The position numbers and the translations under genes were made by a program. From the NCBI GenBank assembly GCA_015059015.1, contig SVBG01000001.1:322026-386025 (forward strand): a stretch of DNA of 64,000 nucleotides, written 5' to 3'. The notes under the pieces were generated by a model. It was not told the origin of the DNA and did not search any database. It saw nothing but the letters and a program-made list of their open reading frames with translations. Positions 7,597 to 36,985 of this stretch are shown piece by piece (positions within the stretch are counted from its first letter, which is position 1; the number at the start of each line of letters is the position of its first letter). The DNA is from Erysipelotrichaceae bacterium. Lineage in GTDB: Bacteria > Bacillota_I > Bacilli_A > ML615J-28 > CAG-313.

Positions 7597-10131
7597 ATGA
7601 AAAAAATAGTTAAAAGATTACTTGGTTTTAGTGTAACTTTAATGTTATTACTTAGTTTTTGTTTACTTGTTAATGCGTGGACGCCACCAAAATTAAAAAA
7701 TCCTTATGTTGAACCTGAAGTTCAATTTAGATCTGTATGGGTATGTACTGTAGCTAATATGGATATTAAAAAACAAGGTGGTACAGATGAGGCTTCTATA
7801 AATGCGTGGAAAGAACAATATTTAGCTATTCTTGAAAGATCGATTGAAAGTGGAATGAATGCTATTATTTTCCAAGTAAGTCCATGTAATGATGCGTTTT
7901 ATCCTTCTAAATATCGTCCTTGGAGTGAATATTTAGCTGGTTTTGGTGTTGATGCTGGATGGGATCCGGTTGAATGGATGATTGAAGTTACACATGCTGC
8001 GGGACTTGAATATCATGCTTGGTTTAATCCATATCGTACTTCTACTAGTGCTCTTACTTATTCAATTACTCAACTTGATTCTGCAACTAATGGTCATTTT
8101 GTATATGATTATGATAAAGATACAATTTATAATTATAAACAATCATATTTTGGTGAATTAAAATCGATTTGTGAAAAAAATGGGACATTAGTTGATAATC
8201 CAATTTTTAAAACTGGTGCTGAATTAGATCATAGCGTTGTTTATGGTACAGAAGGTAAGTTTGTTTTAAACCCTGCTGCAGATGCTACAATTGAAAATGT
8301 TGAAAATACAATTCGTGAATTTATTACTAATTATGATGCTGATGGTATTCATTTTGATGATTATTTCTATCCAGATGATAAAGCTTATAAAGGTTCAAAT
8401 ACTGAATATAAAAAATATTCATTCTCTTGTGAACCTGATATTGATTTAAATGATTATCAAAGTTATTTATCAAAGGGTGGTGAACTTTCTATTTATGATT
8501 GGCGTAGAGAAAATGTTAATACATTAATTAGTAATTTAGGTGGAATTGTTCGTGAAATTAATGAAACAGATACTTATAAATGTGCGTTTGGTATTTCTCC
8601 TGCTGCAAGATGGGCTCCAAGTTTAGAGGCTTGTCAAAGTACACCACAACGTGGTGTTGAAGGCGGAATGAATGATAATTGTAATAATTATTACTCTTAT
8701 TCTGATTTATATGCTGATACTTATAAATGGGCTAAAGAGGGATGGATTGATTATATCTTACCTCAAGTATATATGTATTTAGGCGATACACCAATTGGTG
8801 TTCCTGACGGTGATTATCCAGAAGTTACTAAATGGTGGAGTGATGCATTAGAAGGATATCCATGTAAACTATATATCGGGACTGCTTTATATCAATTAGA
8901 TGAATGGTCAAGTCAAGGAAATGCAACATCTGATGAATTTTTCTATCAACAAATGTATAACCAAGATAAAGAATTTAGAGTTGATGGATATGTAATGTTT
9001 AGATATGCGTCTTTAAATACTTCATTAGGTAGTAAAGCGGTGGACAAAATGGTTGCTAAAGTTTGGAAAATAGCAGCATTAACTCCAATTTACCCTGCAT
9101 ATACATATGATAGTGTTGATTCTGCTGCTACAATAAATCAATTAAAATTAAATAGTGATGGAACTTATACAGTTAGTTTTAATAAAGTAGATGATGCTAA
9201 AGCATATGGTCTTTTAGCAGATGGTGAGTGTGTTGCAAGAGTATTATCAGGTAATTCTTCACTTGTATTTACAAAGGAAGAAGGCAAGACATATGAACTT
9301 GTCACATATGGGTATGATAATGTGATGCATACTGATAAAGATGTTATTAATTTTGATGAAGTTGCAGTTAATGAAAAACCTGTTGTTTCCTTTAAAACTA
9401 AGTTTGAAAAAGAGTATTTAATAAGTTCTAAAATAGAAGTTGTAATTAGTATTGAAGATAAAGAAAATGATCCGATGATTTATACTTTAGCTTACCAATA
9501 TGATGATAGAAATCGTATTTTAGTTGATAATCAAAAGGTTACTGAAAATGAATTTACATATACATTTAGTTCTTACGCAAGAGAATATGAAAATTGTTAT
9601 TTTATTTTAACAGTAGATGATGGATATGGACCTATTGAAGTAATAAGTGAGTCGTTTAAAATGGTTAAAGAATTGACACCGCCACATGAACACGTGTTTG
9701 TAGATGGTGTTTGTGAGTGTGGAGAGGTTGATCCAAATTATGTACCACCTCATGTTCATGAATTTATAGAAGGAAAGTGTGAGTGTGGAGAAGTTGATCC
9801 AAATTATGTACCACCTCATGTTCATGAATTTATAGAAGGAAAGTGTGAGTGTGGAGAGGTTGATCCAAATTATGTACCACCTCATGTTCATGAATTTATA
9901 GAAGGAAAGTGTGAGTGTGGAAAAGTTGATCCAAATTATGTACCACCTCATGTTCATGAATTTATAGAAGGAAAGTGTGAGTGTGGGGAAATTGATCCAA
10001 ATTATGTAGCTCCTGGTGATTCTGAACCTGAACCTGCAAAGAAAAAATGTGGTAAGAAGAGTGCAGAAATTGTTGTTGCATGCTTAACATTTGCGACACT
10101 AATTAGTGTAGTTTTAAGAAAGAAGGATTAA
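7597..10131 (+). CDS. Secreted, C-terminally anchored GHL10 (DUF187) glycoside hydrolase with His/Cys repeats
   Basis: 844-residue extracellular enzyme. An N-terminal signal peptide (hydrophobic residues about 9-26) is followed by a glycosyl-hydrolase-like 10 barrel (about 40-500) with RSVWVCTVANMD, HAWFNPYR, HFDDYFYPD and WIDYILPQVYMYLG. Two beta-sandwich/Fn3-like regions lie at about 510-690. Then come five 22-residue His/Cys repeats (695-804), and a tail with KKKCGKKS (Cys818), a membrane span and RKKD at the end. The family includes E. coli DigH, which cuts peptide-free peptidoglycan strands, so a murein substrate is plausible. The next gene is a cytosolic paralogue starting 1 base later. 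The tail recurs in two other proteins of this window and looks like an anchoring signal. Confidence 0.88.
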   Translation: MKKIVKRLLGFSVTLMLLLSFCLLVNAWTPPKLKNPYVEPEVQFRSVWVCTVANMDIKKQGGTDEASINAWKEQYLAILERSIESGMNAIIFQVSPCNDAFYPSKYRPWSEYLAGFGVDAGWDPVEWMIEVTHAAGLEYHAWFNPYRTSTSALTYSITQLDSATNGHFVYDYDKDTIYNYKQSYFGELKSICEKNGTLVDNPIFKTGAELDHSVVYGTEGKFVLNPAADATIENVENTIREFITNYDADGIHFDDYFYPDDKAYKGSNTEYKKYSFSCEPDIDLNDYQSYLSKGGELSIYDWRRENVNTLISNLGGIVREINETDTYKCAFGISPAARWAPSLEACQSTPQRGVEGGMNDNCNNYYSYSDLYADTYKWAKEGWIDYILPQVYMYLGDTPIGVPDGDYPEVTKWWSDALEGYPCKLYIGTALYQLDEWSSQGNATSDEFFYQQMYNQDKEFRVDGYVMFRYASLNTSLGSKAVDKMVAKVWKIAALTPIYPAYTYDSVDSAATINQLKLNSDGTYTVSFNKVDDAKAYGLLADGECVARVLSGNSSLVFTKEEGKTYELVTYGYDNVMHTDKDVINFDEVAVNEKPVVSFKTKFEKEYLISSKIEVVISIEDKENDPMIYTLAYQYDDRNRILVDNQKVTENEFTYTFSSYAREYENCYFILTVDDGYGPIEVISESFKMVKELTPPHEHVFVDGVCECGEVDPNYVPPHVHEFIEGKCECGEVDPNYVPPHVHEFIEGKCECGEVDPNYVPPHVHEFIEGKCECGKVDPNYVPPHVHEFIEGKCECGEIDPNYVAPGDSEPEPAKKKCGKKSAEIVVACLTFATLISVVLRKKD
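9679..10008 (+). repeat. Five 66-bp tandem repeats coding for HxH/CxCG units
   Basis: Units start at 9679, 9745, 9811, 9877 and 9943, exactly 66 bp apart. The last four are nearly identical at the DNA level and the first is diverged. Each codes for 22 residues with the pattern HxHxFxxGxCxCGxxDPNY. The near-identity points to recent expansion, and copy number could vary without breaking the frame. Confidence 0.97.
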
Positions 10132-10132
10132 T

Positions 10133-11401
10133 ATGAAATTAAAAAGATATACTCCAGATTATTTAAAATACTGGCATAATAAAGAAGAAATTGATATTCC
10201 TGAGTTTAGATTTAGAGAAGATGATGTTCGTGGATGTTGGATTTCGAATGTTGCGAATATTGATACGCCAAAAGGATTAAATGTTGATGATTATAAAGCA
10301 CATTTAATTGCTATCTTAGATAATATGAAAAGTTATAATATGAATACAGCAGTATTTCAAGTAAGACCTTGTAATGATGCGTATTATCCATCTAAACTTA
10401 ATCCTTGGTCAAAATTCATTACTGGTGTTGAAGGTAAAGATCCAGGTTTTGATGTTTTAGCATTCTTTATTGAAGAAGCTAAAAAACGTGGTATTAAAGT
10501 TCATGCTTGGATGAATCCATATCGTGTAGATACTGTAGATGTAAGAACTGTTAATATGACAAAAGACGAATATCTTGATACTTTATCAGAAGGTAATTGG
10601 GCAAGAATTCATAAAGAACATACGGTGTTAGATGGTGTTAGTAAAATCATATTAGCTCCATCGCATCCTGAAGTTATTGAATTTGTTACAGAGTCAATTA
10701 TGGAAGTTGCAAGAAACTATGATGTTGAAGCTGTTCATATTGATGATTACTTCTATCCTTACGCAAAAATACCAGAAGAAACAGAGTATGATGATTATTT
10801 AAAATATCGTGAAAGTGAAACACAATCATTTGATGATTTTAGAAGAAGCAATGTCGATAAAATGATTAAAAGTGTAAGTGATGCATTAAAGGAAATGTAT
10901 GCTGAAACTGGTAAAAAAGTAGAATTTGGTATTAGTCCATTTGCGGTATATAGAACTCATTCTTCAATTGTAGAAAATGGATGGGAAAAAGGCTCTTATA
11001 ATGTTGCAAGCGCATTGCAATGCTATAGTGAACTTTATTCAGATGTTTATAAGTGGATGGTCGAAGGTTGGATTGATTATGTTGTTCCACAAAATTATTT
11101 CTCTTTTGAACGTCGTGATGTAGCATACCATGATGTAGCTTGGTGGTGGAGTAATATATGTAATGAAACTGGAACAAAACTTTATATGGGACAAGGAATA
11201 TACCATATGGGTGCTACTGAAGGGTGGGGGCATGAAACATGGCAAAATCCTGAAGAAATTAATAATCAATTAAAATTTAATTGTAATTTTGATAATATAA
11301 AAGGTACAATTTTCTTTACTTATAAAGATTTAGTACCTGGTAAAAACACAATAAAAGACGAAGGACTTGCTAAATTAAAAAAACTTTGGAACAATAAATA
11401 A
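10133..11401 (+). CDS. Cytosolic GHL10 (DUF187) glycoside hydrolase
   Basis: 422-residue paralogue of the catalytic domain encoded just upstream, without signal peptide, repeats or anchor, so it should act inside the cell. Shared motifs are GCWISNVANID near the N-terminus, FQVRPCNDAYYPSKLNPWS, HAWMNPYR, VHIDDYFYPY (about 201-210) and WIDYVVPQNYF. The pair suggests that the same glycan is cut first outside and then, after import of oligosaccharides, inside. The gene begins 1 base after the previous stop and is followed by a terminator. GHL10 relatives act on denuded peptidoglycan; other beta-linked glycans remain possible. Confidence 0.87.
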   Translation: MKLKRYTPDYLKYWHNKEEIDIPEFRFREDDVRGCWISNVANIDTPKGLNVDDYKAHLIAILDNMKSYNMNTAVFQVRPCNDAYYPSKLNPWSKFITGVEGKDPGFDVLAFFIEEAKKRGIKVHAWMNPYRVDTVDVRTVNMTKDEYLDTLSEGNWARIHKEHTVLDGVSKIILAPSHPEVIEFVTESIMEVARNYDVEAVHIDDYFYPYAKIPEETEYDDYLKYRESETQSFDDFRRSNVDKMIKSVSDALKEMYAETGKKVEFGISPFAVYRTHSSIVENGWEKGSYNVASALQCYSELYSDVYKWMVEGWIDYVVPQNYFSFERRDVAYHDVAWWWSNICNETGTKLYMGQGIYHMGATEGWGHETWQNPEEINNQLKFNCNFDNIKGTIFFTYKDLVPGKNTIKDEGLAKLKKLWNNK

Positions 11402-11404
11402 TAT

Positions 11405-11439
11405 AAAAAATAGTCTCTTTTTTAAGAGGCTATTTTTTT
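11405..11439 (+). terminator. Terminator after the GHL10 pair
   Basis: AAAATAGTCTCTT pairs with AAGAGGCTATTTT, followed by a T-run. Confidence 0.8.
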
Positions 11440-11473
11440 GTTTTTAAAAATGTTAAAATAACTATTATTTTAG

Positions 11474-11502
11474 TTGCAAAAAAACGCTTTCTTTGGTATA
11501 AT
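11474..11502 (+). promoter_or_regulatory. Promoter with LacI-type operator element for the GH20/ABC operon
   Basis: TTGCAA (11474-11479) and TATAAT (11497-11502) are separated by 17 bp. The spacer contains AAAACGCTTTC, a half-site also found in the promoter region at 33898-33917. A repressor bound here would block RNA polymerase. Assignment to the LacI protein at 1315 is inference. Confidence 0.65.
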
Positions 11503-11568
11503 AAGATAGAATAGGATTAATATGGACTATTGTGACTAATGGTCCCAAAAAAGAGGTAGGTGAGAAAG

Positions 11569-13398
11569 TTGAAATTGGTACCAAAACCTAAAAAAATTAA
11601 GATTTTAGATGGATATTTTGAACATATCTTAATTGAAAAAGTAAACTATGACCCTTTTTTAGACGACCGAATATTTAAAGAATTAAAAAAAATAAATATA
11701 TGTATCAAAAAAACTGATGAATTGGATGCTCCCCTACTCTTTGAGTTAGATCAAACTTTAAAGAAAGAACAATATAAAATATTTATTAATTCTAAACAAA
11801 TTATTGTTAACGCTGCGACATTAGTTGGTGCTTTTTATGGTATTAAAACATTACAACAAATTTTAAAAGAAGAACAAGTTCCATGTATTGAAATAGATGA
11901 TTATCCAGACTTGGAATTGCGTGGTGTAATGCTTGATATAAGTAGAAGTAAAGTTCCTACTCTTCAAACACTTAAAAAATTAGTTGATAAGTTTGCAACA
12001 CTTAAACTTAATCATTTAGAATTATATGTTGAAGGGTTTAGTTTTGAATATAAGAGTTTTAGAAAAGAAATTGAAATTAATAATAATTATTTACCGCTTG
12101 ATGATTTTATAGCATTACAAACTTATTGTGAAGAAAATTTTATTGACTTAGTACCTAATCAAAATGGTTTTGGCCATATGGCTGATTGGCTTGCACTTGA
12201 TGAATATATTGACTTAGCTGAATGCCCTGATGGATTCTTTATATGGGGGGCAAACAGACCTCCTAGTACACTTGATCCTACTAATCCAAATAGCATTAAA
12301 CATGTTAAGAAGATGTATGATGATATGTTGCCATATTTTAAATCAAAATACTTTAATATGGATTTTGATGAGCCATTTGAACTTGGTCATGGTAAGAGTA
12401 AACAACATGTTTTAGAATTAGGACTTGCAAATGTATTTATAGACTTTTTTAAACAACTTAGTGATTATGTAACTGATACTTATAAAAAAACACCAATGCT
12501 ATGGGGTGATGTACTAATTAAACATCCTGAAGCGATATCTAAACTTCCTAAAAATGCGGTATTTATAGACTGGGGTTATAATCATAAATATGATTTTGAC
12601 AGTCATGCTAAAATACTTTCAGAAAGTGGGCTTGACTTTGTTTTAGCACCAGGTACAGTTTCTTGGGGAAATATTTTAGGAAATTATCTTGATATGGAAG
12701 GATCAATTGCTAATGCAGCTTTAGCTTGTAAAAAGTATGGTGCTAAGGGATTGATTGTAACAGACTGGGGTGATATTGGACATCTTCAATATTTACCTGT
12801 AAGTTATGCTGGAATTAGTTATGCCGCAATTAAAGCTTGGTCTGATGGAGATGAATCAGATATTGTTGAAGGTGTAAATTTATTTATTGATGATGATAAG
12901 TTATCTAATTTAATTGTTAAGTTGATGAAATTTATTCCCCTTGAAGGTGAATATAGAGATTATGGATGTAGATTGTTTTATACGATCCTTTGGGCTGAAC
13001 ATGCTTCTAGGTATGAAAATCCTAAAGAATTCTTCTTAGAAAAAATGAAATATAACTTAATTGCAGAAGAAAATGTAGCTAAATTAAGAGAATTCTTTGA
13101 TGAAGCATTATTTATTTTAGAAGAAAATGAAAACGTTTTAGAGGTTAGTGAACTTAAAAACAGTATTTTCTTACTTAAAACTTTACTTGATATTAACGTA
13201 AAACTTACGATAATATATAATAATCAAAACGAAGATGAAATTGATTTTGATAAAGAAATTTCGTTGTTAGAGATTTATAGCAACACACATTTAAAATTGT
13301 GGAATGCGCGTAATATTCATGCCGGCTATAAAATGAGTAATCAACGAATTTTATGGCTGATACAAGTATTAGCTTTAGTGAAAAAGGAAAGGAGTTAA
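11569..13398 (+). CDS. GH20-family beta-N-acetylhexosaminidase, cytosolic
   Basis: Retaining hexosaminidase that would remove terminal GlcNAc (or GalNAc) using substrate-assisted catalysis. The N-terminal GH20b-like domain (about 1-105) is followed by the barrel starting LRGVMLDISRSKVP. The neighbouring Asp-Glu pair typical of GH20 is seen in NMDFDEPFE (Asp267/Glu268 with my start). There is no signal peptide, which implies that short oligosaccharides are imported before cleavage. I favour TTG 11569, 8 bases after GAGGTAGG; GTG 11560 overlaps that ribosome site. It is first in a long operon, and its last codons contain the ribosome site of the next gene (1-base gap). Length (609) suits the family. 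Confidence 0.83.
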   Translation: MKLVPKPKKIKILDGYFEHILIEKVNYDPFLDDRIFKELKKINICIKKTDELDAPLLFELDQTLKKEQYKIFINSKQIIVNAATLVGAFYGIKTLQQILKEEQVPCIEIDDYPDLELRGVMLDISRSKVPTLQTLKKLVDKFATLKLNHLELYVEGFSFEYKSFRKEIEINNNYLPLDDFIALQTYCEENFIDLVPNQNGFGHMADWLALDEYIDLAECPDGFFIWGANRPPSTLDPTNPNSIKHVKKMYDDMLPYFKSKYFNMDFDEPFELGHGKSKQHVLELGLANVFIDFFKQLSDYVTDTYKKTPMLWGDVLIKHPEAISKLPKNAVFIDWGYNHKYDFDSHAKILSESGLDFVLAPGTVSWGNILGNYLDMEGSIANAALACKKYGAKGLIVTDWGDIGHLQYLPVSYAGISYAAIKAWSDGDESDIVEGVNLFIDDDKLSNLIVKLMKFIPLEGEYRDYGCRLFYTILWAEHASRYENPKEFFLEKMKYNLIAEENVAKLREFFDEALFILEENENVLEVSELKNSIFLLKTLLDINVKLTIIYNNQNEDEIDFDKEISLLEIYSNTHLKLWNARNIHAGYKMSNQRILWLIQVLALVKKERS

Positions 13399-13399
13399 A

Positions 13400-16300
13400 A
13401 TGAAAAAGACGCGAAAAATTTTAATCTTTTGTATTGCATGTGTCTTTGCAACTGCTATATTCTTTAGCTTTTACAAAGGCGATGTAAAAGTATCTGCTGA
13501 AAATAGTTCAGCAAGTACACAAACAAACTCATATAATGCTTCTGCTTATGAACAATATATTAGTGAAAAAACTAATGAGCATATAGCAAAATATGGAGAA
13601 CAAACATTAACACCAACATTATCTGAATCTATTAAAGTAAAAGGTGCAGATTATGCTGAAGTTGGTGGAGTTGCTGACGATGGTTTTAGTTCAGCAATTA
13701 AAGAATTATCAATTGCTGATAACTCTACTTATGCGAATTCTGAAACTGCAAAATTAGGTGGTGACAAAGTTGTTGCTCACCTAGGAGGGTATGTAACTTA
13801 TGAAGTTGAAATTCCTGCTGCTGGTTTCTATACATTATACTTAAACTATTATACTTATAGTGGTTTTAGTTCTGCTACAGAAAGAAGCTTATATATTAAT
13901 GGTGAATTACCATTTGCTGATTGTAGTGCGTTTGCATTCTCACGTGTATGGCAAGATAAAGCTGACACAAGAATTAAAGATGGCAAAGAAACAGTATATA
14001 ATGTATTAAATTCTGATGCTGATGAAAATGGTAATATTACTATTTCTAAGTTATGGCGTAAAGATACTAATGAAAACGAACTTAAACCTCAACAAATTGA
14101 AGTTAATAGTGCTAAAGCTGGTGCTGCATTTAAAGATTCAATGGGTTATGTAATTGAACCATTTGAATTCTATTTTGAAAAGGGTACTCAAAAAATTCGT
14201 TTAGAATTTATTAAAGACTATTTTGTAATTGATACTTTAGAAGTTCGTCAAGTCGAAAAAGCGGATTCATATTCTGAATACTATAATGCATTAGTTGCAA
14301 AATATGGTGACCCTGCAAATTCTGTTAAAAATGTTTATACAAGAATTGAAGCAGAAGCATCTGCAACTAAATCTTCACCTACACTTTACCCTGTAACTGA
14401 CCGTTCTGATTCTGCTACTTATCCATTTAGTATTACTAAATCTTACCTTAATACTATTGGTGGTGCAAACTGGAAAGTTCTTGGTGACTGGATTGCATGG
14501 GAATTTACTGTTCCTGAAAGTGGTTATTATGAAGTTTCAATGCGTGCTAAACAAAATACAGTTCGTGGAATGTTCTCTACAAGAACTGTTAGTGTTGCTG
14601 AAAAAGAAGCAAACGGAACTTTAGGTGAATATAAAGTATTATTTGATGAATTAAATACATTTAAAGTAACTTATAATAATAAATGGAAAAATGTTACAAT
14701 TGGTGATAGTTCACTAGACAAGAAACAAGAATGCGAAACTCCATATTTATTCTATTTTGAAAAAGGTAAAACTTATTCGTTAAAAATGGAAGTTACTCTT
14801 GGTGATTATTCATCATTAATTGCTAGACTTCAAGCTGCTATTGATGAATTATCTGCAATCTATCGTAAGATTATTGCTTATACTACTACATCTCCAGATG
14901 CTAATCGTGACTATGAATTAACAGTGAAATTCCCTGAATTATTCTATGGTATTGATGAAGCAACAGGCGAATATGAAAAAGTTGCTGGTGGTGGTGAGTT
15001 TTATCAAGTTCTTGATGAGTTAACAGCAATTTCTACTTCTATTAAAAAGATTTCTGCTGGTTATGCTCCAGATGCTGATGTAGAAGAAAAGATTTATAAA
15101 CAAGGTGCATCTGATAAAACAGGTGTTATTGATAGTGTAGTTGTTATTTTGCAAAAAATGGTTGATAAACCACGTGAAATTACTAAACGTTTAAATTCAT
15201 ATTCAACAAACGTATCTTCATTAGGATCACTTCTTACTGAATTAAGAGAGGCTCCTTTAACAATTGACTATATTGAAATTCATACTCCAGATATTGAATT
15301 ACCTAAACCTAATGCTGGCTTCTTTAGATCATTATGGGATGGTATCGCAAGTTTCTTTGCATCATTCTTTATTGATTATTCTTCAATTAGTGAAACTGGT
15401 GATGCTACAAACTCAAATACTTCAATTGAAGTTTGGATGACTCTTGGTCGTGACCAAGCTAATGTAGTTCGTAACTTAATTGATACAAGCTTTACAGGTG
15501 ACTCTGGTTATGCTGTTGAGCATTATGGTGAAAATATTAATGTAGATTTAAAACTTACTGGTGGTGACGTATTACTTAAGGCTACACTTGCTGGTATCGG
15601 TCCAGATGTTGCGTTGAACGTTGATTCAAGTTTACCTGTTAACTGGGCATTAAGAAATGCTGTATTTGATTTAACTGAATTTGATGATTTCTGGGAAGTT
15701 GTTTATGCAGTTCCAGATGGAGATGATGGTACTAATGTTCCTGATAAATATGAAAATGTATATATGGCATCTTCAATTAGACAATTCCAATTTAGTGCAA
15801 TGGATGCTGCTGATGAATGGTTTGATAGCAAAAATTATACAGCTAAAGAATTAAAAGAAAAGATTACTGGTGTTTATGCTCTTCCTGAAAAACAAATTTT
15901 CTTAATGATGTTTGTTCGTGATGACGTAATGGAAGAATTAAAATTAACTGAAATGTTCCCTGATGGTTGGGATAATATGACTTGGGATGATATGCTACGT
16001 TTAACTGCTGAATTACAAGCTCAACAATTACAATTCTATCTACCTGTTAATGACTTAGGTGCTAATGCTCTTAACCCAATCTTTATTTCGTTACTATATC
16101 AAAATGGTGGTGAATTATATTCATCTAATAATATGGAATCTGGTTTAAAATCTGAAGCTGCTATGAATTCATTTGAATTCTGGACTGAACTTTATACTAA
16201 TTATTCATTCCCTACTTCTGCAAGTTTCGTTAACCGTTTCAGAACTGGTGAAATGCCAATTGGTATTTCTTATTATGAAATGTATAATACATTAAGTGTA

Positions 16301-27042: not shown

Positions 27043-28123
27043 TGATGAAAAATTAACTTTTAAAGAATTAGTTGCGGCATACAAGAATGAAGCTAAAGAA
27101 AGTTATAATACTTTTAGAGATAACTTAAGAAGACCATTAACACGTGCAGTATATGCTCAACGTATTTCAGGTGTTGCAGGAAGTTTATTAAGAGCATTTA
27201 TCATTTTTGGTTTATCATTTATTATTTTATATCCTATTTTCCAAGAAGTTATTGTTGCAATTAAAGACCCTATTGATTTAAATAATCCACTTGTTGTTTG
27301 GATTCCTGAACATTTTAGTTTAGTTAATATTCAAATCTCAGCAGAACTTCTAGATTATTGGAATGCCCTTAAAAATAATATTAAGATTTCAGCGTTTACT
27401 GCTGTGTTGCAAGTTGCGTCTACATCACTTGCTGGTTATGCATTTGCAAGATTAAGATTTAAAGGTAGTGATTTAGTATTCTGGATTGTAATGCTTACAT
27501 TACTTGTTCCACCTCAAACTACTACACTTGCTCGTGCTTTATATTTCTCTCACTTTGATGTGTTTGGTATTTTTAAAGCGTTAACAGGTGAAGCGTTATC
27601 GTTAAAAGGTGAAGGTAAAGACGTAATCCTTTATATGATGGCTATCTTTGGTCAAGGTATTAGAGCTGCTTTATTCGTGTTCTTATTTAAACAATTCTTC
27701 CGTGGAATTCCTGTTGAACTTGAAGAAAGTGCTCAAATCGATGGTGCTGGTGTTGTAAGAACATTCTGGAGTGTAATGCTTCCGAATGCTCGTGGATGTA
27801 TTACAACTGTTTCATTATTTGCCTTTGTTTGGCAATGGAATGATTCATTCTATGTAAGTCAATATGGTTTATCTGGTGAGGCTTTCCCACTTTTAACAAT
27901 GAGACTTTTAAACGTTGCAGAATGGGTTAGAAATGTTTTAATGTCTCCACAATTTAAACACTTATATTATTTAGTTGGTGAAGAAGTTGGATCAAATCCG
28001 ATGTTTACTAAATCAATTACAAATACTTCAGCATTCTTAGTAATGTTGCCGTTATTAATTGGATATTTATTCGTTCAAAGGTTATTCATTGAAGGTGTTG
28101 AACGTTCTGGTATCGTAGGTTAA
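27026..28123 (+). CDS. Sugar ABC transporter permease, second pair (MalG type)
   Basis: 365 residues with the MalG-like layout: cytosolic N-terminus, six spans and an EAA loop EESAQIDGAGVVRTFWSVMLP. The C-terminus FIEGVERSGIVG is typical. It starts inside the previous gene (17-base overlap), where GGTGGTG provides the ribosome site. It would pair with the product of 25927-27042. The ATPase is not encoded in this window. Confidence 0.91.
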   Translation: MTTKNNDEKLTFKELVAAYKNEAKESYNTFRDNLRRPLTRAVYAQRISGVAGSLLRAFIIFGLSFIILYPIFQEVIVAIKDPIDLNNPLVVWIPEHFSLVNIQISAELLDYWNALKNNIKISAFTAVLQVASTSLAGYAFARLRFKGSDLVFWIVMLTLLVPPQTTTLARALYFSHFDVFGIFKALTGEALSLKGEGKDVILYMMAIFGQGIRAALFVFLFKQFFRGIPVELEESAQIDGAGVVRTFWSVMLPNARGCITTVSLFAFVWQWNDSFYVSQYGLSGEAFPLLTMRLLNVAEWVRNVLMSPQFKHLYYLVGEEVGSNPMFTKSITNTSAFLVMLPLLIGYLFVQRLFIEGVERSGIVG

Positions 28124-28152
28124 TATAAATTAAAATAAGGAGAAAAGAAGGA

Positions 28153-28860
28153 ATGAAAAGATTTAATTTGTACAATAGTAAAATATTCAAGTTTTTCGAT
28201 TATTGTTTTCGTCTTGTACTAATTAATTTATTAATATTGTTACCTTCTTTTCTTCTTTTTTATCTTTTCTCACTTCTCTTTAAAGACAACATGGAAAGCC
28301 TTTTAGGATTAATACCACTTATTCCTGCTATGCTTTATATGTATCCTGCTATTTGTGCTGGCGTTGATTTAATTAGAAAATATGAATTAAAGCAATGTAA
28401 TACTGTTTTTAAAGAATTCTTCAAAAGCCTTAAACGAATATTTTTTAAAGCATTAATTGAAATTATAATTATTTTAATCTTTGTTGTACTATTTTATTTT
28501 AGTATTAGTTATTTCTATTTACATCTATCAGATGGAATAATTAATGGTTTTGGTTTTGTGCTTGCTATTGCGTTTGCAATCATGCTGCTTGTAATAATTG
28601 TTCATCTTCCTCTTGTAATGAATTACATGGAAGGTTGTATGATTATTGATGATATAAAACTTGCAAGTATGATGGCTTTTCAAGACTTAGTGATTACACT
28701 TGGTATTGTTATATTTATTATTGGTGATGTCGCATTAATGATTTATACGCCTACTTTGGCTGTTATATGTGGATTTAGTTTACCAATGTATTTACTTATA
28801 AAACTTACTTTTAAGAAATACTATATTGTATATATAAGAACACATAAGGATAAGGAGTAA
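28153..28860 (+). CDS. DUF624/YesL-family membrane protein
   Basis: 235 residues with about five membrane spans and the family's N-terminal block (FFDYCFRLVLINLLILL). YesL-type proteins sit next to CUT1 sugar transporters in many Firmicutes, as in the B. subtilis yes cluster, but their job is not known. It closes the long operon begun at 11474, 29 bases after the last permease, with AAGGAGAAAAG as ribosome site. A second family member is at 41818-42528. Confidence 0.85.
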   Translation: MKRFNLYNSKIFKFFDYCFRLVLINLLILLPSFLLFYLFSLLFKDNMESLLGLIPLIPAMLYMYPAICAGVDLIRKYELKQCNTVFKEFFKSLKRIFFKALIEIIIILIFVVLFYFSISYFYLHLSDGIINGFGFVLAIAFAIMLLVIIVHLPLVMNYMEGCMIIDDIKLASMMAFQDLVITLGIVIFIIGDVALMIYTPTLAVICGFSLPMYLLIKLTFKKYYIVYIRTHKDKE

Positions 28861-28862
28861 AC

Positions 28863-28895
28863 AAAAAAAAGTCCATCACTTGGGCTTTTGTTTTG
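28863..28895 (+). terminator. Probable intrinsic terminator or attenuator after the ABC operon
   Basis: AAAAGTCC pairs with GGGCTTTT, flanked by an A-run and followed by TGTTTTG. I see no strong promoter between it and the next gene, so partial read-through into 28929-33755 is likely. Confidence 0.6.
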
Positions 28896-28928
28896 CTTAA
28901 TATACTATTAAAATAGGAGGAAAAAATA

Positions 28929-31415
28929 GTGAAGCAAATTACAAAAAAAATTAGTTTATTTTTACTAGCTTTTGTATTTGTTTTTGGACTTTTCGCTAAA
29001 GTTTCAGTAAAAGCAGATAGTGAAGATTACAAAGAAGCTAGTGAAGCAGTCACTACTAATGTATATGGTACGATGACTGCAAATTCTCAAAGAATTGAGA
29101 CTATTAATAATGGGGTTCAAAATCCTGATAGTGCTAAGTATTATTGGAATAATCATACTGTACACTGGGTAGATTTTGATACTTCTAATGATGTTAAAAT
29201 TGTAACATATAGTGGTAGTAATCAAGATAAATGGAAGCAAATGACTACTCGTCAAGCAGCTGCTGACTGGGAAAAAAATAATCCAGGTTGGATTGTTGTT
29301 GCTGGTATTAATGGTGATTTCTTCAATAATAGTGGAACTGCAACGTATGAACCTACAGGAAACTTTATGCAAGGTGGCCATATGTATCGTGCACAAAAAT
29401 CTGGTATTGATTATCGTCAAACTATCGGATGGAATGCTGATGGTAGTGTAATTGTTGGTGACCCAAGTATTTCTTCTAGTATGTATTTAAGAATTTATAA
29501 TGAAGAAAGAACTGAAATTGAAAATGATGTAGTAATTAGTGCTGTTAATAAAACACCTAGTGATTCTGGTATTACACTTCTTACAAAAGATGTTAAAAAT
29601 ACATTTGATTTAACAGGTTATAAAGTAATTGATTGTACTTATGACATTTGCCGTATTTCTACTGGTGGTTATGTATTTGTAAAAGGTATTGTAGGTGACG
29701 AAATTATTCTTGGTGCAGATTCAGCACCTGGTGATGATCATTTCTATTTGGTTGCAAAAGATGGTTCTTTAGATAATGTTGTTGTATCTGGTGATTATGT
29801 TAAGTGTGAATATGTATATGAGAACGATTGGAGTAATGTTCAAAACTCAATCGGTTATATCTATCAAGTACTTGCTAATGGTACTCCACAATTACGTGAA
29901 TCAAGTGATGCATTTGCTTATACAACTCATCCTCGTACATTAATTGGCTTTAAAGAAGATGGTTCAACAGTATTTATGGTAGTTGAAGGGCGTGGTCTTT
30001 CACAAGATTATCAAGTTGGTGTTTCACTTTATGAAGCTGGACAATTATTACAAGCACAAGGCTGTGTTAGTGGTTATAATTTAGATGGTGGTGGTTCTTC
30101 TACATTAATTGTTAGAAATAGATATAATGGATTTGATGTATTAAATGATCCAAGTGATGGTAGTGAAAGAAGCGATGGTAACCACTGTTTAGTTGTAATG
30201 CGTGATCCTGGTTTTGTTTATACTGATGTTTTTTCTACATATGATCAAGCTGTTGTTAAATTAAATGTTACAAAACCTGAATACTTTAATACATTAAGTA
30301 ATATTAAAGTAACTCTTAATGGTGTTACAAAAGATTATGTTGATGGTGGTGTAAGTTTTGATAATGTTGAAATGTTAGCAACTTATCCAGTTACAATTAC
30401 TTATGATAGTCCTGGAACATATGATGCAAGTATTATAACTAATAAAACTTATATTAAATATTTAACAGTTCCAGAATATGAATATCCAGATCATGGCTTA
30501 TTTGTTAAAGATGTTACTGATACTTCTATTACTATCGCAAAAGATATGACATTATCAACTGCAAATCAAATTGAAGATGTAGTTATTCATATTAATGATA
30601 GAACATTTAATTTAGGTAATAATGAAGTTATTGAATGTAAAGATTTATATCAAGACGTTAACTATGAAGTATATTATGAATATGTAGTTGTAGCGCCTAA
30701 TGGTTTAAGATTTAATTTAACAAGTGATGTGTTTAATGTTAAAACTAAAGCATTTAAAGTTCCTACAATTGTTTCATTTGTTGAAGCTCGTAAGGGAACA
30801 TCATCATTAAAATTTGATTATGAAATTTTAGATGATGATAATGTTGCAACAAAGAAATATGTATCTATTAATGGTGAAATTGCTAAAGAATTTACTCTTA
30901 AATCTGGAAGTGTTACTATTACAGGATTAGATTTTGATGTAAATGAATATATTGTTAAATTAGTTATTGAATATGTTGATGAAAATGAAAAAACAGTTAA
31001 AGTTGAATCTGAAGAATTAATATATGTTAAAGAGCATGTTCATGAATATGTTGATGGTGTTTGTGAATGTGGAGAGAAAGATCCAAATTATGTTCCACCA
31101 CATGTACATAACTTTGTAGAAGGTACTTGTGAATGTGGAGAAGTTGATCCTAACTACGTACCACCACATGTACACAACTTTGTAGAAGGTGCTTGTGAAT
31201 GTGGAGAAAAAGATCCAAATTATGTTCCACCACATGTACACAACTTTGTAGAAGGTACTTGTGAATGTGGAGAAAAAGATCCAAATTATGTTGAACCTAA
31301 CGATCCACAACCTGAACCTGCTAAGAAAAAATGTAGTAAAAAGAGTGTTGACGTAGTTATTGGTATATTATCATTAACTGCAATAATGGGAATATTCTTT
31401 AGAAAAAGAAAATAA
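28929..31415 (+). CDS. Secreted phosphodiester glycosidase (NAGPA domain) with His/Cys repeats and C-terminal anchor
   Basis: 828 residues starting at GTG 28929, 8 bases after AGGAGG. After a signal peptide (about 8-28) comes a NAGPA-type domain (about 105-420), recognised by NGDFFNN, HPRTLIGF and the active-site block NLDGGGSST (about 385-393). Human NAGPA removes GlcNAc from GlcNAc-1-phospho-6-mannose; bacterial relatives act on sugar-phosphodiesters. Ig/Fn3-like regions (about 430-700) lead to four 22-residue His/Cys repeats (701-788) and the tail KKKCSKKS (Cys802), a membrane span and RKRK. It precedes nagZ by 18 bases. Inference: it could cleave the GlcNAc-1-phosphate bond that joins teichoic acid to MurNAc O6. 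Confidence 0.87.
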   Translation: MKQITKKISLFLLAFVFVFGLFAKVSVKADSEDYKEASEAVTTNVYGTMTANSQRIETINNGVQNPDSAKYYWNNHTVHWVDFDTSNDVKIVTYSGSNQDKWKQMTTRQAAADWEKNNPGWIVVAGINGDFFNNSGTATYEPTGNFMQGGHMYRAQKSGIDYRQTIGWNADGSVIVGDPSISSSMYLRIYNEERTEIENDVVISAVNKTPSDSGITLLTKDVKNTFDLTGYKVIDCTYDICRISTGGYVFVKGIVGDEIILGADSAPGDDHFYLVAKDGSLDNVVVSGDYVKCEYVYENDWSNVQNSIGYIYQVLANGTPQLRESSDAFAYTTHPRTLIGFKEDGSTVFMVVEGRGLSQDYQVGVSLYEAGQLLQAQGCVSGYNLDGGGSSTLIVRNRYNGFDVLNDPSDGSERSDGNHCLVVMRDPGFVYTDVFSTYDQAVVKLNVTKPEYFNTLSNIKVTLNGVTKDYVDGGVSFDNVEMLATYPVTITYDSPGTYDASIITNKTYIKYLTVPEYEYPDHGLFVKDVTDTSITIAKDMTLSTANQIEDVVIHINDRTFNLGNNEVIECKDLYQDVNYEVYYEYVVVAPNGLRFNLTSDVFNVKTKAFKVPTIVSFVEARKGTSSLKFDYEILDDDNVATKKYVSINGEIAKEFTLKSGSVTITGLDFDVNEYIVKLVIEYVDENEKTVKVESEELIYVKEHVHEYVDGVCECGEKDPNYVPPHVHNFVEGTCECGEVDPNYVPPHVHNFVEGACECGEKDPNYVPPHVHNFVEGTCECGEKDPNYVEPNDPQPEPAKKKCSKKSVDVVIGILSLTAIMGIFFRKRK
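31029..31292 (+). repeat. Four 66-bp tandem repeats coding for HxH/CxCG units
   Basis: Units start at 31029, 31095, 31161 and 31227. They encode the same 22-residue pattern as the repeats in the GHL10 protein at 9679-10008, with different codons and with Thr/Ala before CECG, so the two arrays expanded separately. Confidence 0.96.
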
Positions 31416-31433
31416 TTAGAAAGATATAATTTT

Positions 31434-33002
31434 ATGGAATTTGATATTAAAAAATTATCATTAAAAGAAAAAGTTGGTCAAATGATTGGTCTTGCTTTTG
31501 CAGGTGGTGAATATTCTCCAGAACTTGCAATGCAAATTGAAGATATTGAAGCTGGCTTAATTATCTATTTTAAAGACAATTGTTTAAACCCTAAGCAAAT
31601 CTTTGATCTTAATAAAGAAATCAATTCTAAGGCTAAAATACCGCCATTTATTGCACTTGATCAAGAAGGCGGAATGGTGGCAAGGGTAACAACAGGGGTT
31701 ACACAATCACCTGGTGCTATGGCTATTAGAGCAGGGTCTAAAAAAGAAGCTGCTTATCACCTTGCATATAATATGGGAAAAGAATTAAGACACTTAGGTT
31801 TTAACTTTAACTTTGCTCCTGAAGGAGATGTAAATAATAATCCGTTAAATCCTGTAATTAATGTTAGAAGTTATTCTGAAGATCCAGTTGTTGTTGCAGA
31901 ATATATGCATGAAGCAGTAAAAGGTTATACTGATGCATTAATGATGTCTTCTGTAAAACATTTCCCTGGTCATGGTGATACTGCGGTTGATTCTCATATT
32001 GGTCTTCCAGTTGTTGATTTTGATGAAGAAAGACTTAATAGTGTTGAACTTGTTCCTTTTAAGAAAGTAATAGAATATGATCTTCCTGGTATTATGGCAA
32101 GTCATGTAATGTATTCATCTTATGATAATGTTTATCCTACAACTCTTTCAAAAAAAATTGTTCAAGGATTGTTAAGAGATAAAATGGGATTTAAAGGATT
32201 AGTTGTAACTGATTCTTTAACAATGAAAGCTGTATGGGGAAGATTTACAATTGAAGAAATTGTATTAAATGGTTTTAACTCTGGTTGTGATATATTATTA
32301 CTTTGTGGTGCAAGACGTATTGATGAGCAAAAAGAATTTGCAGAAACTGCATTAAGACTTGCAGAGGAAGGCAAAATTCCACTAGAAGTAATTGATGCTG
32401 CAGTTGAAAGAATTCTTAAATATAAGGCGATGTTTAAAGTTGGTGAAATGGCTGATACATTTGATGATATTAAAGATGATTTAGAAGTTAAGGAAAGAGT
32501 TGATTTTGCACAAGATGTTGCTGATAAATCTATTACGGTTATTAAGGATAATAAAAAGGTATTACCACTTACAAAAGATGATAAAACACTTATTGTATTC
32601 CCTGTTATTAAAGTTGTAACACTTGTTGAAAATGATGATAATACATTAAACTCTTTAGGTGATTTTATGCCATTTAAAGTTGATAAACATTATGTATCAA
32701 TTGATCCGACAAAAGAAGAACAAGAAGAATTAATTAAACTTGCAAAAGAGTATGACAAAGTTGTTTATTGTAGTTATAATGCGTGTTTTAATAAAACGCA
32801 AGCTGATTTAATTAATAGTTTAGAAAAAGATAAACTAGCTGTTATTGCAATTAGAACACCATATGATTTAAATGTTTTGGATGTTGATACTTATCTATGT
32901 AGTTATGAAGCTAGTGTTCAAGCATTTATAGCTCTTTCAAAAGTATTAACTGGAAAACTTACTGCAACAGGTAAAGTGCCTGTTACACTAAATAAAAAAT
33001 AA
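31434..33002 (+). CDS. nagZ: Beta-N-acetylglucosaminidase NagZ (GH3), cytosolic
   Basis: GH3 enzyme that releases GlcNAc from GlcNAc-MurNAc fragments. The NagZ signature KHFPGHGDTAVDSH (residues 175-188) supplies the catalytic His, and the nucleophile Asp is in LVVTDSLTMKAV (about 259-270). A C-terminal GH3 sandwich domain (about 350-522) is present as in Bacillus NagZ. There is no signal peptide, whereas the B. subtilis enzyme is secreted, so cleavage is probably intracellular here. It lies between the phosphodiester glycosidase and nagB, 24 bases before the latter. Identification is strong. Confidence 0.94.
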   Translation: MEFDIKKLSLKEKVGQMIGLAFAGGEYSPELAMQIEDIEAGLIIYFKDNCLNPKQIFDLNKEINSKAKIPPFIALDQEGGMVARVTTGVTQSPGAMAIRAGSKKEAAYHLAYNMGKELRHLGFNFNFAPEGDVNNNPLNPVINVRSYSEDPVVVAEYMHEAVKGYTDALMMSSVKHFPGHGDTAVDSHIGLPVVDFDEERLNSVELVPFKKVIEYDLPGIMASHVMYSSYDNVYPTTLSKKIVQGLLRDKMGFKGLVVTDSLTMKAVWGRFTIEEIVLNGFNSGCDILLLCGARRIDEQKEFAETALRLAEEGKIPLEVIDAAVERILKYKAMFKVGEMADTFDDIKDDLEVKERVDFAQDVADKSITVIKDNKKVLPLTKDDKTLIVFPVIKVVTLVENDDNTLNSLGDFMPFKVDKHYVSIDPTKEEQEELIKLAKEYDKVVYCSYNACFNKTQADLINSLEKDKLAVIAIRTPYDLNVLDVDTYLCSYEASVQAFIALSKVLTGKLTATGKVPVTLNKK

Positions 33003-33026
33003 TAATTTTTAAGGAGAAAATAAAAA

Positions 33027-33755
33027 ATGAAAGTAATAGTAGTTAAAAATTATGATGAATTAAGTGAATTAGGCGCTTCTATCATCGCTAAATTAATTAA
33101 AGAAAAACCTAATTGTACATTAGGTCTTGCAACAGGATCAAGTCCAGTAGGTACTTACCAAAACCTAATTAAAGCTTATAATAATGGTGAAATTTCATTT
33201 AAAGATGTTCATTCATATAACTTAGATGAATATTGTGGTATTGATAGAAATCATCCTCAAAGTTATTACTACTTTATGCATGACAATCTATTTAATCATG
33301 TCGATATTGTTGAAGAAAATACGCATGTTCCATATGCTGCTCCAGGAAGTGATCTAGATGCTGAAGCAAAAAAATATACTGAAGCTTTAAATAGTGTTGA
33401 AATTGATTTACAACTTCTTGGTATTGGTGGAAATGGTCACATTGGTTTTAATGAACCAGGCACTCCATTTGAACAAGAAACATTTGTTGTTACACTTGCA
33501 CAAAAAACACGTGAAGATAATAAACGTTTCTTTAATAGTATTGATGAAGTTCCTACTCATGCAATGACAATGGGAATCGCAAATATCATGAATGCAAAAA
33601 GTATTTTAATGTTAATTTCTGGTGCTTCTAAAGCAGATACAGTTGTTAAATTATTAAAAGGCGAAATTACTACTGATTTCCCTGCTTCAATTCTTCATAA
33701 ACATCCAAATGTTACTGTTATTATTGATGAAGCAGCTTATTCTAAGATGAATTAA
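33027..33755 (+). CDS. nagB: Glucosamine-6-phosphate deaminase
   Basis: Converts glucosamine-6-phosphate to fructose-6-phosphate and ammonia, the last step of amino-sugar salvage. Signatures are LGLATGSSPVGTY (sugar-phosphate binding), YNLDEYCGI and LLGIGGNGHIGFNEPG (about 130-145). At 242 residues it is the short form typical of Firmicutes. AAGGAGAAAAT precedes the ATG and a strong terminator follows. NagA, which normally supplies its substrate from GlcNAc-6-phosphate, is not in this window. Confidence 0.97.
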   Translation: MKVIVVKNYDELSELGASIIAKLIKEKPNCTLGLATGSSPVGTYQNLIKAYNNGEISFKDVHSYNLDEYCGIDRNHPQSYYYFMHDNLFNHVDIVEENTHVPYAAPGSDLDAEAKKYTEALNSVEIDLQLLGIGGNGHIGFNEPGTPFEQETFVVTLAQKTREDNKRFFNSIDEVPTHAMTMGIANIMNAKSILMLISGASKADTVVKLLKGEITTDFPASILHKHPNVTVIIDEAAYSKMN

Positions 33756-33768
33756 TTAGGAAAAAATT

Positions 33769-33801
33769 AAAAAGCAAAACTGGTATAGTTTTGCTTTTTT
33801 T
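33769..33801 (+). terminator. Terminator after nagB
   Basis: AAAAAGCAAAACT pairs with AGTTTTGCTTTTT around GGTAT, followed by further T residues. Confidence 0.88.
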
Positions 33802-33865
33802 ATATGTTTTTTGAAAACATTTTCATAAAATGGTAAAAAATTTATTAAAAAAAATATTGTTTCTA

Positions 33866-33917
33866 TTGCAAACAAAAAAAACATATGTTATAATATAAAC
33901 GCAAACGCTTTCAAATT
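33866..33917 (+). promoter_or_regulatory. Strong promoter with LacI-type operator before the coiled-coil surface protein
   Basis: TTGCAA (33866-33871) and TATAAT (33889-33894) have a 17-bp spacer. Just downstream, GCAAACGCTTTCA (33901-33913) resembles a cre/LacI-family operator and shares ACGCTTTC with the 11474 promoter. The operator lies at the likely transcription start, suited to repression. Confidence 0.68.
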
Positions 33918-33940
33918 ATAAATAGGAGGAAAATAAATTT

Positions 33941-36900
33941 ATGAAAAAAGTCTTTGCTTTTTTAAGTGTATTTGCACTTACAATCGCATTTGTTGGCTTT
34001 AGTGCTAAACCTGCTAATGCAGCTGGTGGCTTAATTACTGAAGACCCAACTTTAAGTGAAAATCAAATACCTATGTATATTATGGATAGTATCTATACTA
34101 CATTCCCTAATTACTATGATTATGCAACTGCAGGTGATGACAAATGGGAAGGTGTTTCTCGTATGTATCCATGGAATGAAACTAGATTCCAATGTAAATT
34201 AATCGATGAAGATGGTAATTTTACTGGTAAAGAATATGCAGTTTATTTCTCTGGTTCTACAACTGCTACTAGTGCAGGTGCTGGTAATAACCTTTTATTC
34301 TACACTACTGATGCAGATGGTAATGTTAAACTAAATAGATTAAGTGGTGAAGCTAAATATGATGAAGCTGGTAATATTAAATGGGATTCAAGTGGTCTTC
34401 CAATGGACCCATCTCTATCTCACATGAGAAGTAATATTTCTGGTCAAGATGTAACATTTGATGCTCTTGAATTATGGGCAGCATATGGCAAAGCTGATAG
34501 TGGTGCTAACTTCTATAACCGTTCATTAGTATTTGATGGTAATGGTCGTATGGTTAGAGGTGTCGCTCCAGATGCTGGTTACTTATTAGCTGGTGCTGAA
34601 GGCGCTTATGGTGTTACTGTTGCTCCTGAATACTGTTTCGTTGAAACTGGTGAAGTAGATGAAGAAGGTAACCCAATTAAAGAAGTAACTAAAATTAAAG
34701 AAGGTACAGTTTGTGCTGTTGAAGAAGTTGTTGATGAAAAAACTGAAGAAGTAAAACAAGTTACTCAATATATCACAAATCGTTTTGTATGGCAATACTT
34801 CTCTGCTGAAGAATTTGATCTTGAAACTGTTAATACAGTTCCTTACCTTTCTGAAGGTTGGGATGCTATGAAATGGGACTATGTAAATGAAGAAGAAGAT
34901 GGTTATGTATGTATCGCATTCGTTAGTGGTGCAAATAGTGCTTCTGCATTTACATTAACTGCTGAACAATTAGCTGTTTATACTGCTACTTGTGAAGCTA
35001 ATGGTTTAGAAGCTCCTACAGCTACTACATCTCGTATGCCAATGCGTCAAATTACAGTTCCAGCTGGTGGTTGGACTTATGACTATGGTTTCTTAGATGC
35101 TGGTAAAGCTGGTTTACAAGACAAATATATGGACATGTTCATTGATGGTTACTACTATGGTAGAACACTTGATGAAGAAGGTAAAGGTATGGCTTACCAA
35201 TCAACTCATGATTTCTCAACAAGTCCAATTTATGCTAAAGATATCCAAAACAATGGTGTTTCTTACCAAGTAATGGATGGACAAAATGTTATTGAAGTTC
35301 TTCAAGGTGAAGTTGTTTACCCAACTAAGAATATAGTTTATGCTGGTATGGCTAAATATTGGCAAACTCCTGGTGATTTCTTATCTTATAAATCAGATAC
35401 TTCTGTTCTAGAATTAACTGTAAAACAAGATGGTGTTACTGTTGTTCAACCTGCTACTGGTTATACTTCATTTGAAGATATGGTAGTAGACTTCATGAAT
35501 GACGTTAATGCAACTGTTGGTGCAATCAAAGGTGAAGGTTATGTTCCTGTTGAAGTTCCTAAATTAGCTGATGGAATTACTACTACTGGTGCATTCTATG
35601 CTACATTAAATAACAACATTATTTCTAATAATGAAACTTATGATAACTTTGCTAGAAACGATGAAATGTGGACTAAATGGTCTTGGTTATTTGAATATAT
35701 GAATACTAAACTTGCTGATGCAGCTAAGATTGACTTAAAGAAACGTACTTGTCCTTCTCCAGGTAACTTTACATATGGTATTTGGGCATTCTTAACTGAA
35801 TCTCCAGAAATCACTGGATGGCCAGCAAGTAAAGCTGACTTCTCTAATGGTGCTGCTCGTGAATGGTTAGATACAAGAACTAACATTGAAAAATGGGATC
35901 AATATTGTATCGATACTGCTACTGCTGCTGTAGATACTAACTATGTAATTAATTTCAAGGCTTACAATCCTAATACAAATCTTGAAACAGAATTAACAAT
36001 TACATATGTTGTAGTTGATGAATATACTCCAATTCTTGAAATCAACAAGAACAATTTAATGTATGCTCCTAAACTAGTTGGTGAAAAACTTGAAATGCCT
36101 GTTATTGATGAATATTCATTCTGTACAGCTTACAATGCTAGATACAATGGTACTTCAATTAAAGGTGACAACATTTCTTACAAAGTTCACTATACTTCTG
36201 AAACATTAGACTTTGATAACCCAACTGAAGGTGATCACGTTGTTACTGCTAAAGTTTATAACCAAACTAAATGGGTTGAAAAATCATTCGTAGTTTCTAT
36301 TGAAGATATGACTGCACCTCGTGCATTTGCTGTTCAATCTATTACAATTGGTGTTGGTGAATACTTTGATTTATTAGATGCTATTATTTATGCATACGAT
36401 AACGTTGATGGTAATTTATTAGATATGAATAGAAGCAACTGGTATCAAGATGTTTCTACTAAGAAATTAGACGTTACAAAAGTTGGTAAATATCAAGTTG
36501 TTCTTGAAATTTGGGATTCAATGGATAATACAGCAACTGTAAGTTATGTTGTTAACGTTGTTAATAACCAAGTAAATGAAGATTTAGCAACTAGCGTTTC
36601 TGCTAATAAACAAGCTATTGATAATGTTGAAAGCTTAGTAATTGAAAACTTCGAAGCAATTAATGAAAACTTCGAAGCAATTAAAGAAAACTTTGAAGCA
36701 ATCAATAATAAGTTTGAAGAAATCGACAATAAGTTTGATGCAGTTGATGACAAATTTGATGCTGTAAACGGTAAATTAGATGAAAATAAAAATGCTGTAA
36801 ATGGTAAATTTGATGAAGTTGAAGAAAACTTTGAAGCTGTTAATGGCAACCTTGGTACATTAGCTGGTAAAGTTGATGCTATTCAAGCTGAATTCGATTC

Positions 36901-36985
36901 TAAATGTGGTTCTAAGAATGCTATTATGGTTCAATTCTTAGCTGCTACAAGTTTATTAGTTGTATTCTTAAGAAAGAAACACTAA
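33941..36985 (+). CDS. Large secreted surface protein with coiled-coil stalk and C-terminal anchor
   Basis: 1014 residues; I do not recognise the main domain. A signal peptide (about 1-27, ending ANAAGG) is followed by a unique region to about 690. Two Ig/cadherin-like sandwiches follow (about 690-870, with VDEYTPILEI and GEYFDLLDAIIYAYDNVDG). Residues about 890-985 are a heptad coiled coil of repeated NFEAIxE/KFDAVxx units. The tail has SKCGSKN (Cys989), a membrane span and RKKH, like the GHL10 and NAGPA proteins. Strong promoter, an AGGAGG ribosome site and biased codons suggest an abundant product. A stalked envelope protein or glycan-capture fibre is plausible; its transcription unit is separate and carries the shared operator. 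Confidence 0.75.
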   Translation: MKKVFAFLSVFALTIAFVGFSAKPANAAGGLITEDPTLSENQIPMYIMDSIYTTFPNYYDYATAGDDKWEGVSRMYPWNETRFQCKLIDEDGNFTGKEYAVYFSGSTTATSAGAGNNLLFYTTDADGNVKLNRLSGEAKYDEAGNIKWDSSGLPMDPSLSHMRSNISGQDVTFDALELWAAYGKADSGANFYNRSLVFDGNGRMVRGVAPDAGYLLAGAEGAYGVTVAPEYCFVETGEVDEEGNPIKEVTKIKEGTVCAVEEVVDEKTEEVKQVTQYITNRFVWQYFSAEEFDLETVNTVPYLSEGWDAMKWDYVNEEEDGYVCIAFVSGANSASAFTLTAEQLAVYTATCEANGLEAPTATTSRMPMRQITVPAGGWTYDYGFLDAGKAGLQDKYMDMFIDGYYYGRTLDEEGKGMAYQSTHDFSTSPIYAKDIQNNGVSYQVMDGQNVIEVLQGEVVYPTKNIVYAGMAKYWQTPGDFLSYKSDTSVLELTVKQDGVTVVQPATGYTSFEDMVVDFMNDVNATVGAIKGEGYVPVEVPKLADGITTTGAFYATLNNNIISNNETYDNFARNDEMWTKWSWLFEYMNTKLADAAKIDLKKRTCPSPGNFTYGIWAFLTESPEITGWPASKADFSNGAAREWLDTRTNIEKWDQYCIDTATAAVDTNYVINFKAYNPNTNLETELTITYVVVDEYTPILEINKNNLMYAPKLVGEKLEMPVIDEYSFCTAYNARYNGTSIKGDNISYKVHYTSETLDFDNPTEGDHVVTAKVYNQTKWVEKSFVVSIEDMTAPRAFAVQSITIGVGEYFDLLDAIIYAYDNVDGNLLDMNRSNWYQDVSTKKLDVTKVGKYQVVLEIWDSMDNTATVSYVVNVVNNQVNEDLATSVSANKQAIDNVESLVIENFEAINENFEAIKENFEAINNKFEEIDNKFDAVDDKFDAVNGKLDENKNAVNGKFDEVEENFEAVNGNLGTLAGKVDAIQAEFDSKCGSKNAIMVQFLAATSLLVVFLRKKH

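Follow-up and report, generated by a model that had tools for sequence, protein, structure and literature searches.

Several unrelated proteins secreted by an uncultured bacterium of the gut type share a C-terminal tail that looks like a surface-anchoring tag. To judge from its sequence and its spread among relatives, it is a real, clade-restricted Cys tail. It is tentatively proposed, at slightly under even confidence, that the tail serves as a modular C-terminal signal for anchoring or sorting and depends on its Cys, with the Cys being lipidated and the membrane span cut off. The stretch of DNA analysed here (64,000 nucleotides, 29 % GC; hereafter the window) is part of contig C3 of a 2.01-Mb genome in 14 contigs, and it encodes three of the tailed proteins:

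7597..10131, +: secreted GHL10 (glycosyl hydrolase-like 10) protein of 844 aa with the Cys tail (reading frame, Pfam)
9685..10017, +: five HxHxFxxGxCECGExDPNYVPP repeats upstream of the tail of the GHL10 protein (sequence)
10027..10128, +: C-terminal tail of the GHL10 protein, PEPAKKKCGKKSAEIVVACLTFATLISVVLRKKD; Cys codon at 10048-10050 (profile search, sequence)
28929..31415, +: secreted NAGPA (phosphodiester glycosidase) protein of 828 aa with the Cys tail (reading frame, Pfam)
31035..31301, +: four HxHxFxxGxCECGExDPNYVPP repeats upstream of the tail of the NAGPA protein (sequence)
31311..31412, +: C-terminal tail of the NAGPA protein, PEPAKKKCSKKSVDVVIGILSLTAIMGIFFRKRK; Cys codon at 31332-31334 (profile search, sequence)
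33941..36985, +: secreted 1014-aa protein with a coiled-coil stalk and the Cys tail, conserved and syntenic in the order
36884..36982, +: C-terminal tail of the 1014-aa stalk protein, ending FDSKCGSKNAIMVQFLAATSLLVVFLRKKH; Cys codon at 36905-36907

A previous reading of the window, made from the sequence only, had described the three tails as a Cys, a span of 15-20 residues and basic residues, and the reading frames bear this out. The Cys, which is residue 818 of the GHL10 protein, 802 of the NAGPA protein and 989 of the coiled-coil protein, was also correctly placed by that reading at 26, 26 and 25 residues from the C-terminus, respectively, and the reported lack of an LPXTG motif in the three proteins was confirmed. 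All three have a signal-peptide-like N-terminal segment, based on hydropathy, and no lipobox Cys was seen when their N-termini were read by eye. The Pfam E-values of the window proteins are 8e-44 for GHL10 and 6.5e-28 for NAGPA. It had also been stated that the proteins share no other domain plan. This holds for the third protein, which has the tail alone in common with the others, but not for the GHL10 and NAGPA proteins; these are not wholly unrelated, because the CECG repeats (five and four copies) are common to both. The repeats stand directly before the tail, and are also present in several other tailed proteins of the genome. In addition, they are found near the N-terminus of a lipoprotein-like protein (38040-40184), and the antisense reading frames that overlap the repeats are open, though repetitive. 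A structure model of the 1014-aa stalk protein was unusable (pLDDT 47).

Rarity of the tail in the genome had been put forward as a point against a sorting system, and does not apply: there are at least nine tailed proteins in this genome and several in each relative of the genus. Eight were identified at E<=4e-16, with nothing else below E=2, by a single-tail search and again by one that used a seven-tail profile, and the ninth, on a 1183-aa protein, was added by a broader profile. The tailed proteins include five NAGPA proteins (that at 28929 in the window and four on contigs C8, C13 and C3), the GHL10 protein, a purple acid phosphatase with Listeria-Bacteroides (List-Bact) repeats, the coiled-coil protein, and the 1183-aa protein; with the last of these left out of the domain scan, the genome has at least four unrelated tailed architectures. 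Their layout, as read from sequence, is a signal-peptide-like segment, an enzyme or stalk, a variable linker, an invariant Cys at the outer edge of the span, a short span, and two to four Lys/Arg residues. In a 404-kb contig sample (305 genes), in which Cys makes up 1.4 % of residues, the Cys is present in four of the five proteins that combine a signal peptide with a single C-terminal span.

By the first profile, each of the relatives within the genus has 3-12 tails, and variants in other genera of the family and order include KKGCGSGALLVLEIAGAAALLAVVLRKRH, SGCKKNNALL..., and GGGGGCQMG.... Clear matches were confined to members of the order when 392 genomes of the phylum were searched with the tail profile, which is short and would miss divergent tails outside the order; the three weak matches at class level in this search are short frames. 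No such tail is present in the tail-free relative G018 among 311 genes (400-kb sample). Tail frames of 26-45 aa are cut off at contig ends in two genomes (G003:C23:75237 and C12:47909; G013:C65/C10 and C33/C12), which suggests assembly breaks immediately ahead of the tail (in G003, within the CECG-repeat region). Tail counts in draft genomes are therefore lower bounds.

Conservation of the Cys was assessed using NAGPA proteins from 43 genomes that had been chosen by catalytic domain, not by tail, and the C-termini of the returned loci were read. In the window's family, all 13 complete proteins (13 genomes) have the Cys, the span and the basic residues, with 24-29 residues from the Cys to the end, whereas none of the 13 complete proteins of the sister family has a C-terminal span. 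The presence of the tail on NAGPA in one family and its absence in the sister family indicate that it is a separable module. Outside the Cys, the mean pairwise identity of the 13 tails is 19 %, and there is a clear contrast in conservation between the Cys and the neighbouring positions. Cys makes up 1.6 % of residues in secreted proteins and the chance of a Cys within a 9-residue window is approximately 0.14 per protein; 0.14 to the 13th power is not a true p-value, because the NAGPA proteins share ancestry.

These results bear on the suggestion that the tail reflects mere common descent of NAGPA paralogues and that its Cys has no functional meaning. Five of the nine tailed proteins are indeed NAGPA paralogues, several of them with near-identical tails and shared CECG repeats. 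However, the tail is also present on the GHL10 protein, the purple acid phosphatase and the stalk protein, no residue but the Cys is invariant in tails that have otherwise diverged to this extent, and the NAGPA proteins of the sister family are without any such tail. Common descent by itself is therefore very unlikely to be the explanation.

Likewise, the 1014-aa stalk protein has the Cys at -25/-26 in all nine complete orthologues (five obtained with two N-terminal patterns, three through tail searches, and the window's own), and the stalk beside the tail differs among them in sequence and in length. A Cys that is not conserved in orthologues had been named as a finding that would speak against the proposal; instead, it is kept throughout, in the NAGPA proteins and in the five complete stalk orthologues found by pattern. 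Among named relatives, the 1014-aa protein is shared by MAGs of uncultured Bacilli or Firmicutes, including one from goat cecum, and by two Acholeplasmataceae MAGs. In an Acholeplasmataceae MAG, the best segment of the orthologue is 33 % identical, and the gene order NAGPA-type tailed protein, NagZ, NagB, stalk protein is kept. The sole invariant column among 31 tails, a set partly chosen with a Cys filter, is the Cys. At the level of sequence, the NAGPA and stalk-protein tails provide strong evidence for use of the Cys, and it is very likely that it is functionally required.

It is quite possible that the tail is a plain C-terminal membrane anchor that stays intact, with no cleavage and with the Cys either S-acylated in place or disulfide-bonded to another tail, giving dimers or oligomers. 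The span and basic end alone would be enough for anchoring, no dedicated protease was found, and a second Cys is present three residues away in two tails (G005 and G014). C-terminal spans without a Cys of the tail kind also exist, for example in a 632-aa protein on C3. However, a plain anchor needs no invariant residue, whereas these tails, though divergent in other respects, have retained the Cys in 13/13 NAGPA and 9/9 stalk proteins, and the spacing from the Cys to the end is held within narrow bounds in the NAGPA tails (24-29 residues).

Under the preferred reading of the tail as a Cys-dependent signal, the proteins would be exported by Sec via the N-terminal signal. The span and basic end would act as a stop-transfer sequence, holding the protein in the membrane with the Cys outside; by established topology rules, a span with a basic end stops transfer, and a Cys in this position is at the outer face. 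The Cys would then be used covalently, most likely through lipidation, and an intramembrane protease would cut off the span behind it to give a lipid-anchored surface enzyme, as has been proposed for MYXO-CTERM. That the Cys is covalently lipidated or processed in some way is considered probable, although not strongly so. The candidate for the cutting protease is CPBP (Rce1-like); no other protease from a superfamily known to process such tails was found in these genomes. The lipid donor enzyme may be Lgt or an aberrant second Lgt encoded on G000:C4.

No sortase was found in any of the 43 genomes of the order, and the same search was positive elsewhere in the class and in controls. Exosortase (PF09721) was likewise absent from all 60 genomes searched, including the 43 of the order. 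For rhomboid there was no credible match in the 43 genomes, the one 62-aa frame, which contains stops, being below the cut-off; the search was positive in nine of 17 other genomes of the class. Sorting by an undescribed enzyme family would fit with this absence of known sortase-type enzymes and with a CPBP protein that is not tail-specific. Such an enzyme would act by transpeptidation or by transfer onto a polymer or lipid of the cell surface, and the Cys would serve as the recognition or acceptor residue; no positive candidate for it was identified, and this explanation is considered unlikely.

A CPBP (Rce1/myxosortase superfamily) protease is present in 41 of the 43 genomes of the order, and there are two in the window's genome. 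One of the two belongs to a CPBP type that is single-copy, occurs in all genomes of the window's family but one (70 % complete), and has invariant EExxFRK, His and HxxxN residues, which are the catalytic motifs. The gene considered in the window's genome is as follows:

G000:C14:206625-207737: CPBP protease gene

The surrounding region (G000:C14:204500-210500; L136) contains genes which we take, from their sequences, to be XTP-pyrophosphatase-like, HU and SpoIVA-like, in an order that is mostly conserved within the family. Seven CPBP proteins were scanned, and none reached the curated cut-offs of the myxosortase models; the CPBP proteins are weakly similar to MrtJ/MrtS, with scores far below the curated cut-offs of 75 and 130 bits. 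A Foldseek search with the CPBP model gave no significant match, with Rce1 (4cad) at rank 30 (E 2.1). As a tail-specific enzyme, CPBP was rejected: the subfamily is found throughout the class, tail-free genomes included, and there is no tail clade in the tree, which is poorly resolved. In the tail-bearing genome G029 (92 % complete), neither CPBP nor Lgt was matched; an assembly gap is likely here, because in G017, which belongs to that genus, both genes lie on a single contig, at a distance of 16 kb. Cleavage of the tail by the CPBP protease of G000:C14 is conceivable, although doubtful.

Two Lgt-type genes are present in 13 of the 15 family genomes; one other has a single copy (71 % complete assembly) and one has three. 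The canonical Lgt is fused to a HAD-family phosphatase (PpaX-like) in a 542-aa protein (G000:C7:202183-203007; L213:3633-5261, + strand). In the aberrant second Lgt (G000:C4:40508-41236; L212:6245-7294, - strand), HxFGRIGCFxAGCCYG replaces the signature RxGNFxNxE, and there are three conserved Cys residues. This second Lgt occurs across the order beside a normal Lgt, and is the only Lgt-type match in G015, G017, G018, G035, and others. It is present in almost every tail-bearing genome of the order, the exceptions being incomplete assemblies. It does not adjoin tail genes in the window's genome, although in G008 a third copy is approximately 5.5 kb from two tail genes. It too was rejected as a tail-specific enzyme, as it occurs in tail-free genomes, at times as the sole Lgt beside ordinary N-terminal lipoproteins; the tail-free G018, for example, has 17 lipobox-like N-termini in 400 kb and no Lgt other than the aberrant one. 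Because many tail-free genomes have it, the second Lgt is not reserved for the tail, and it is regarded here simply as a candidate acyltransferase.

The sequence-only reading had called for a membrane protease or transferase limited to tail-bearing genomes. None was found, both CPBP and the second Lgt being present in tail-free relatives as well, and the processing at the Cys and the analogy with MYXO-CTERM are therefore inferences. It is improbable that the complete scheme applies, that is, a new Gram-positive C-terminal lipoprotein pathway, replacing sortase substrates, in which the second Lgt lipidates the tail Cys and CPBP removes the span. If true, this lineage would make C-terminally anchored lipoproteins rather than sortase substrates.

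The window contains an island for peptidoglycan and amino-sugar catabolism (7597-47513), with two GHL10 genes, GH20, DUF5696, NAGPA, GH3 (NagZ-like), NagB, NamZ, MupG, AnmK- and MurQ-like genes, and ABC transporters. NagB, AnmK (anhydro-muramate kinase) and MurQ (etherase-like) were named from sequence by eye and are presumptive. In view of this peptidoglycan- and amino-sugar-scavenging setting, the probable function of the tails is surface retention of cell-wall- and phosphodiester-cleaving enzymes, and an anchoring tail would account for the location of such enzymes in these gut bacteria. A Bacilli lineage in which approximately ten tails per genome occur together with two Lgt-type genes and very few CPBP genes, and in which neither sortase nor rhomboid nor exosortase was found, is also a simple background in which to find the Cys-modifying enzyme.

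Relevant work in the open literature was limited to the myxosortase system. There, a C-terminal sorting signal with an invariant Cys has been worked out in the Gram-negative Myxococcus; MYXO-CTERM has the same tripartite plan, the cut by its CPBP protease depends on the motif cysteines, and the Cys-modifying enzyme is unknown there too (PMC11980579). By analogy, we infer that the tail described here works most like MYXO-CTERM. As with MYXO-CTERM and myxosortase MrtX of Myxococcota (TIGR03901, NF040593), a signal peptide is combined with an invariant Cys, a span and a basic cytoplasmic end, each genome has many hydrolases and surface proteins, unrelated to one another, that carry the tail, and a CPBP-superfamily protease is encoded. 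In contrast to that system, the host belongs to the Bacilli, not the Myxococcota, the end is Lys-rich rather than Arg-rich, the CPBP proteins are below every myxosortase cut-off and are not limited to tail-bearing genomes, and neither an outer-membrane nor a type II secretion step is implied.

The whole window proteins reached none of the Pfam/NCBIfam tail models, neither they nor their tails were matched by TIGR03901 or TIGR03382, and no model clearly describes the tail. With single tails, these two models gave weak matches to 3/31 and 1/31, respectively (best 4.7e-4). JDVT-CTERM/MrtJ and Synerg-CTERM/MrtS are likewise Cys-bearing tails paired with CPBP, and six and one of the 31 tails are weakly similar to them. 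The best single-tail match (9e-8) is to the LPXTG model, the other weak to moderate ones being to the JDVT-CTERM and MYXO-CTERM models; such matches are expected, because the tails are span-plus-basic-end sequences. The tail is like the LPXTG/sortase system in its span and basic end, through which TIGR01167 matches ten of the 31 tails weakly to moderately, but the three window proteins are without LPXTG and the 43 genomes of the order without sortase. It shares a tripartite C-terminal signal with GlyGly-CTERM/rhombosortase and PEP-CTERM/exosortase, but no rhomboid or exosortase was found in the order and there is no PEP signature, and a Cys stands in place of the GlyGly-type motif. Unlike canonical lipoproteins (Lgt/LspA), the proteins have no N-terminal lipobox, and their Cys is C-terminal with a span behind it. 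On sequence grounds, the tail is rated as a C-terminal sorting signal of the Cys type, in an order of Bacilli in which no sortase was detected.
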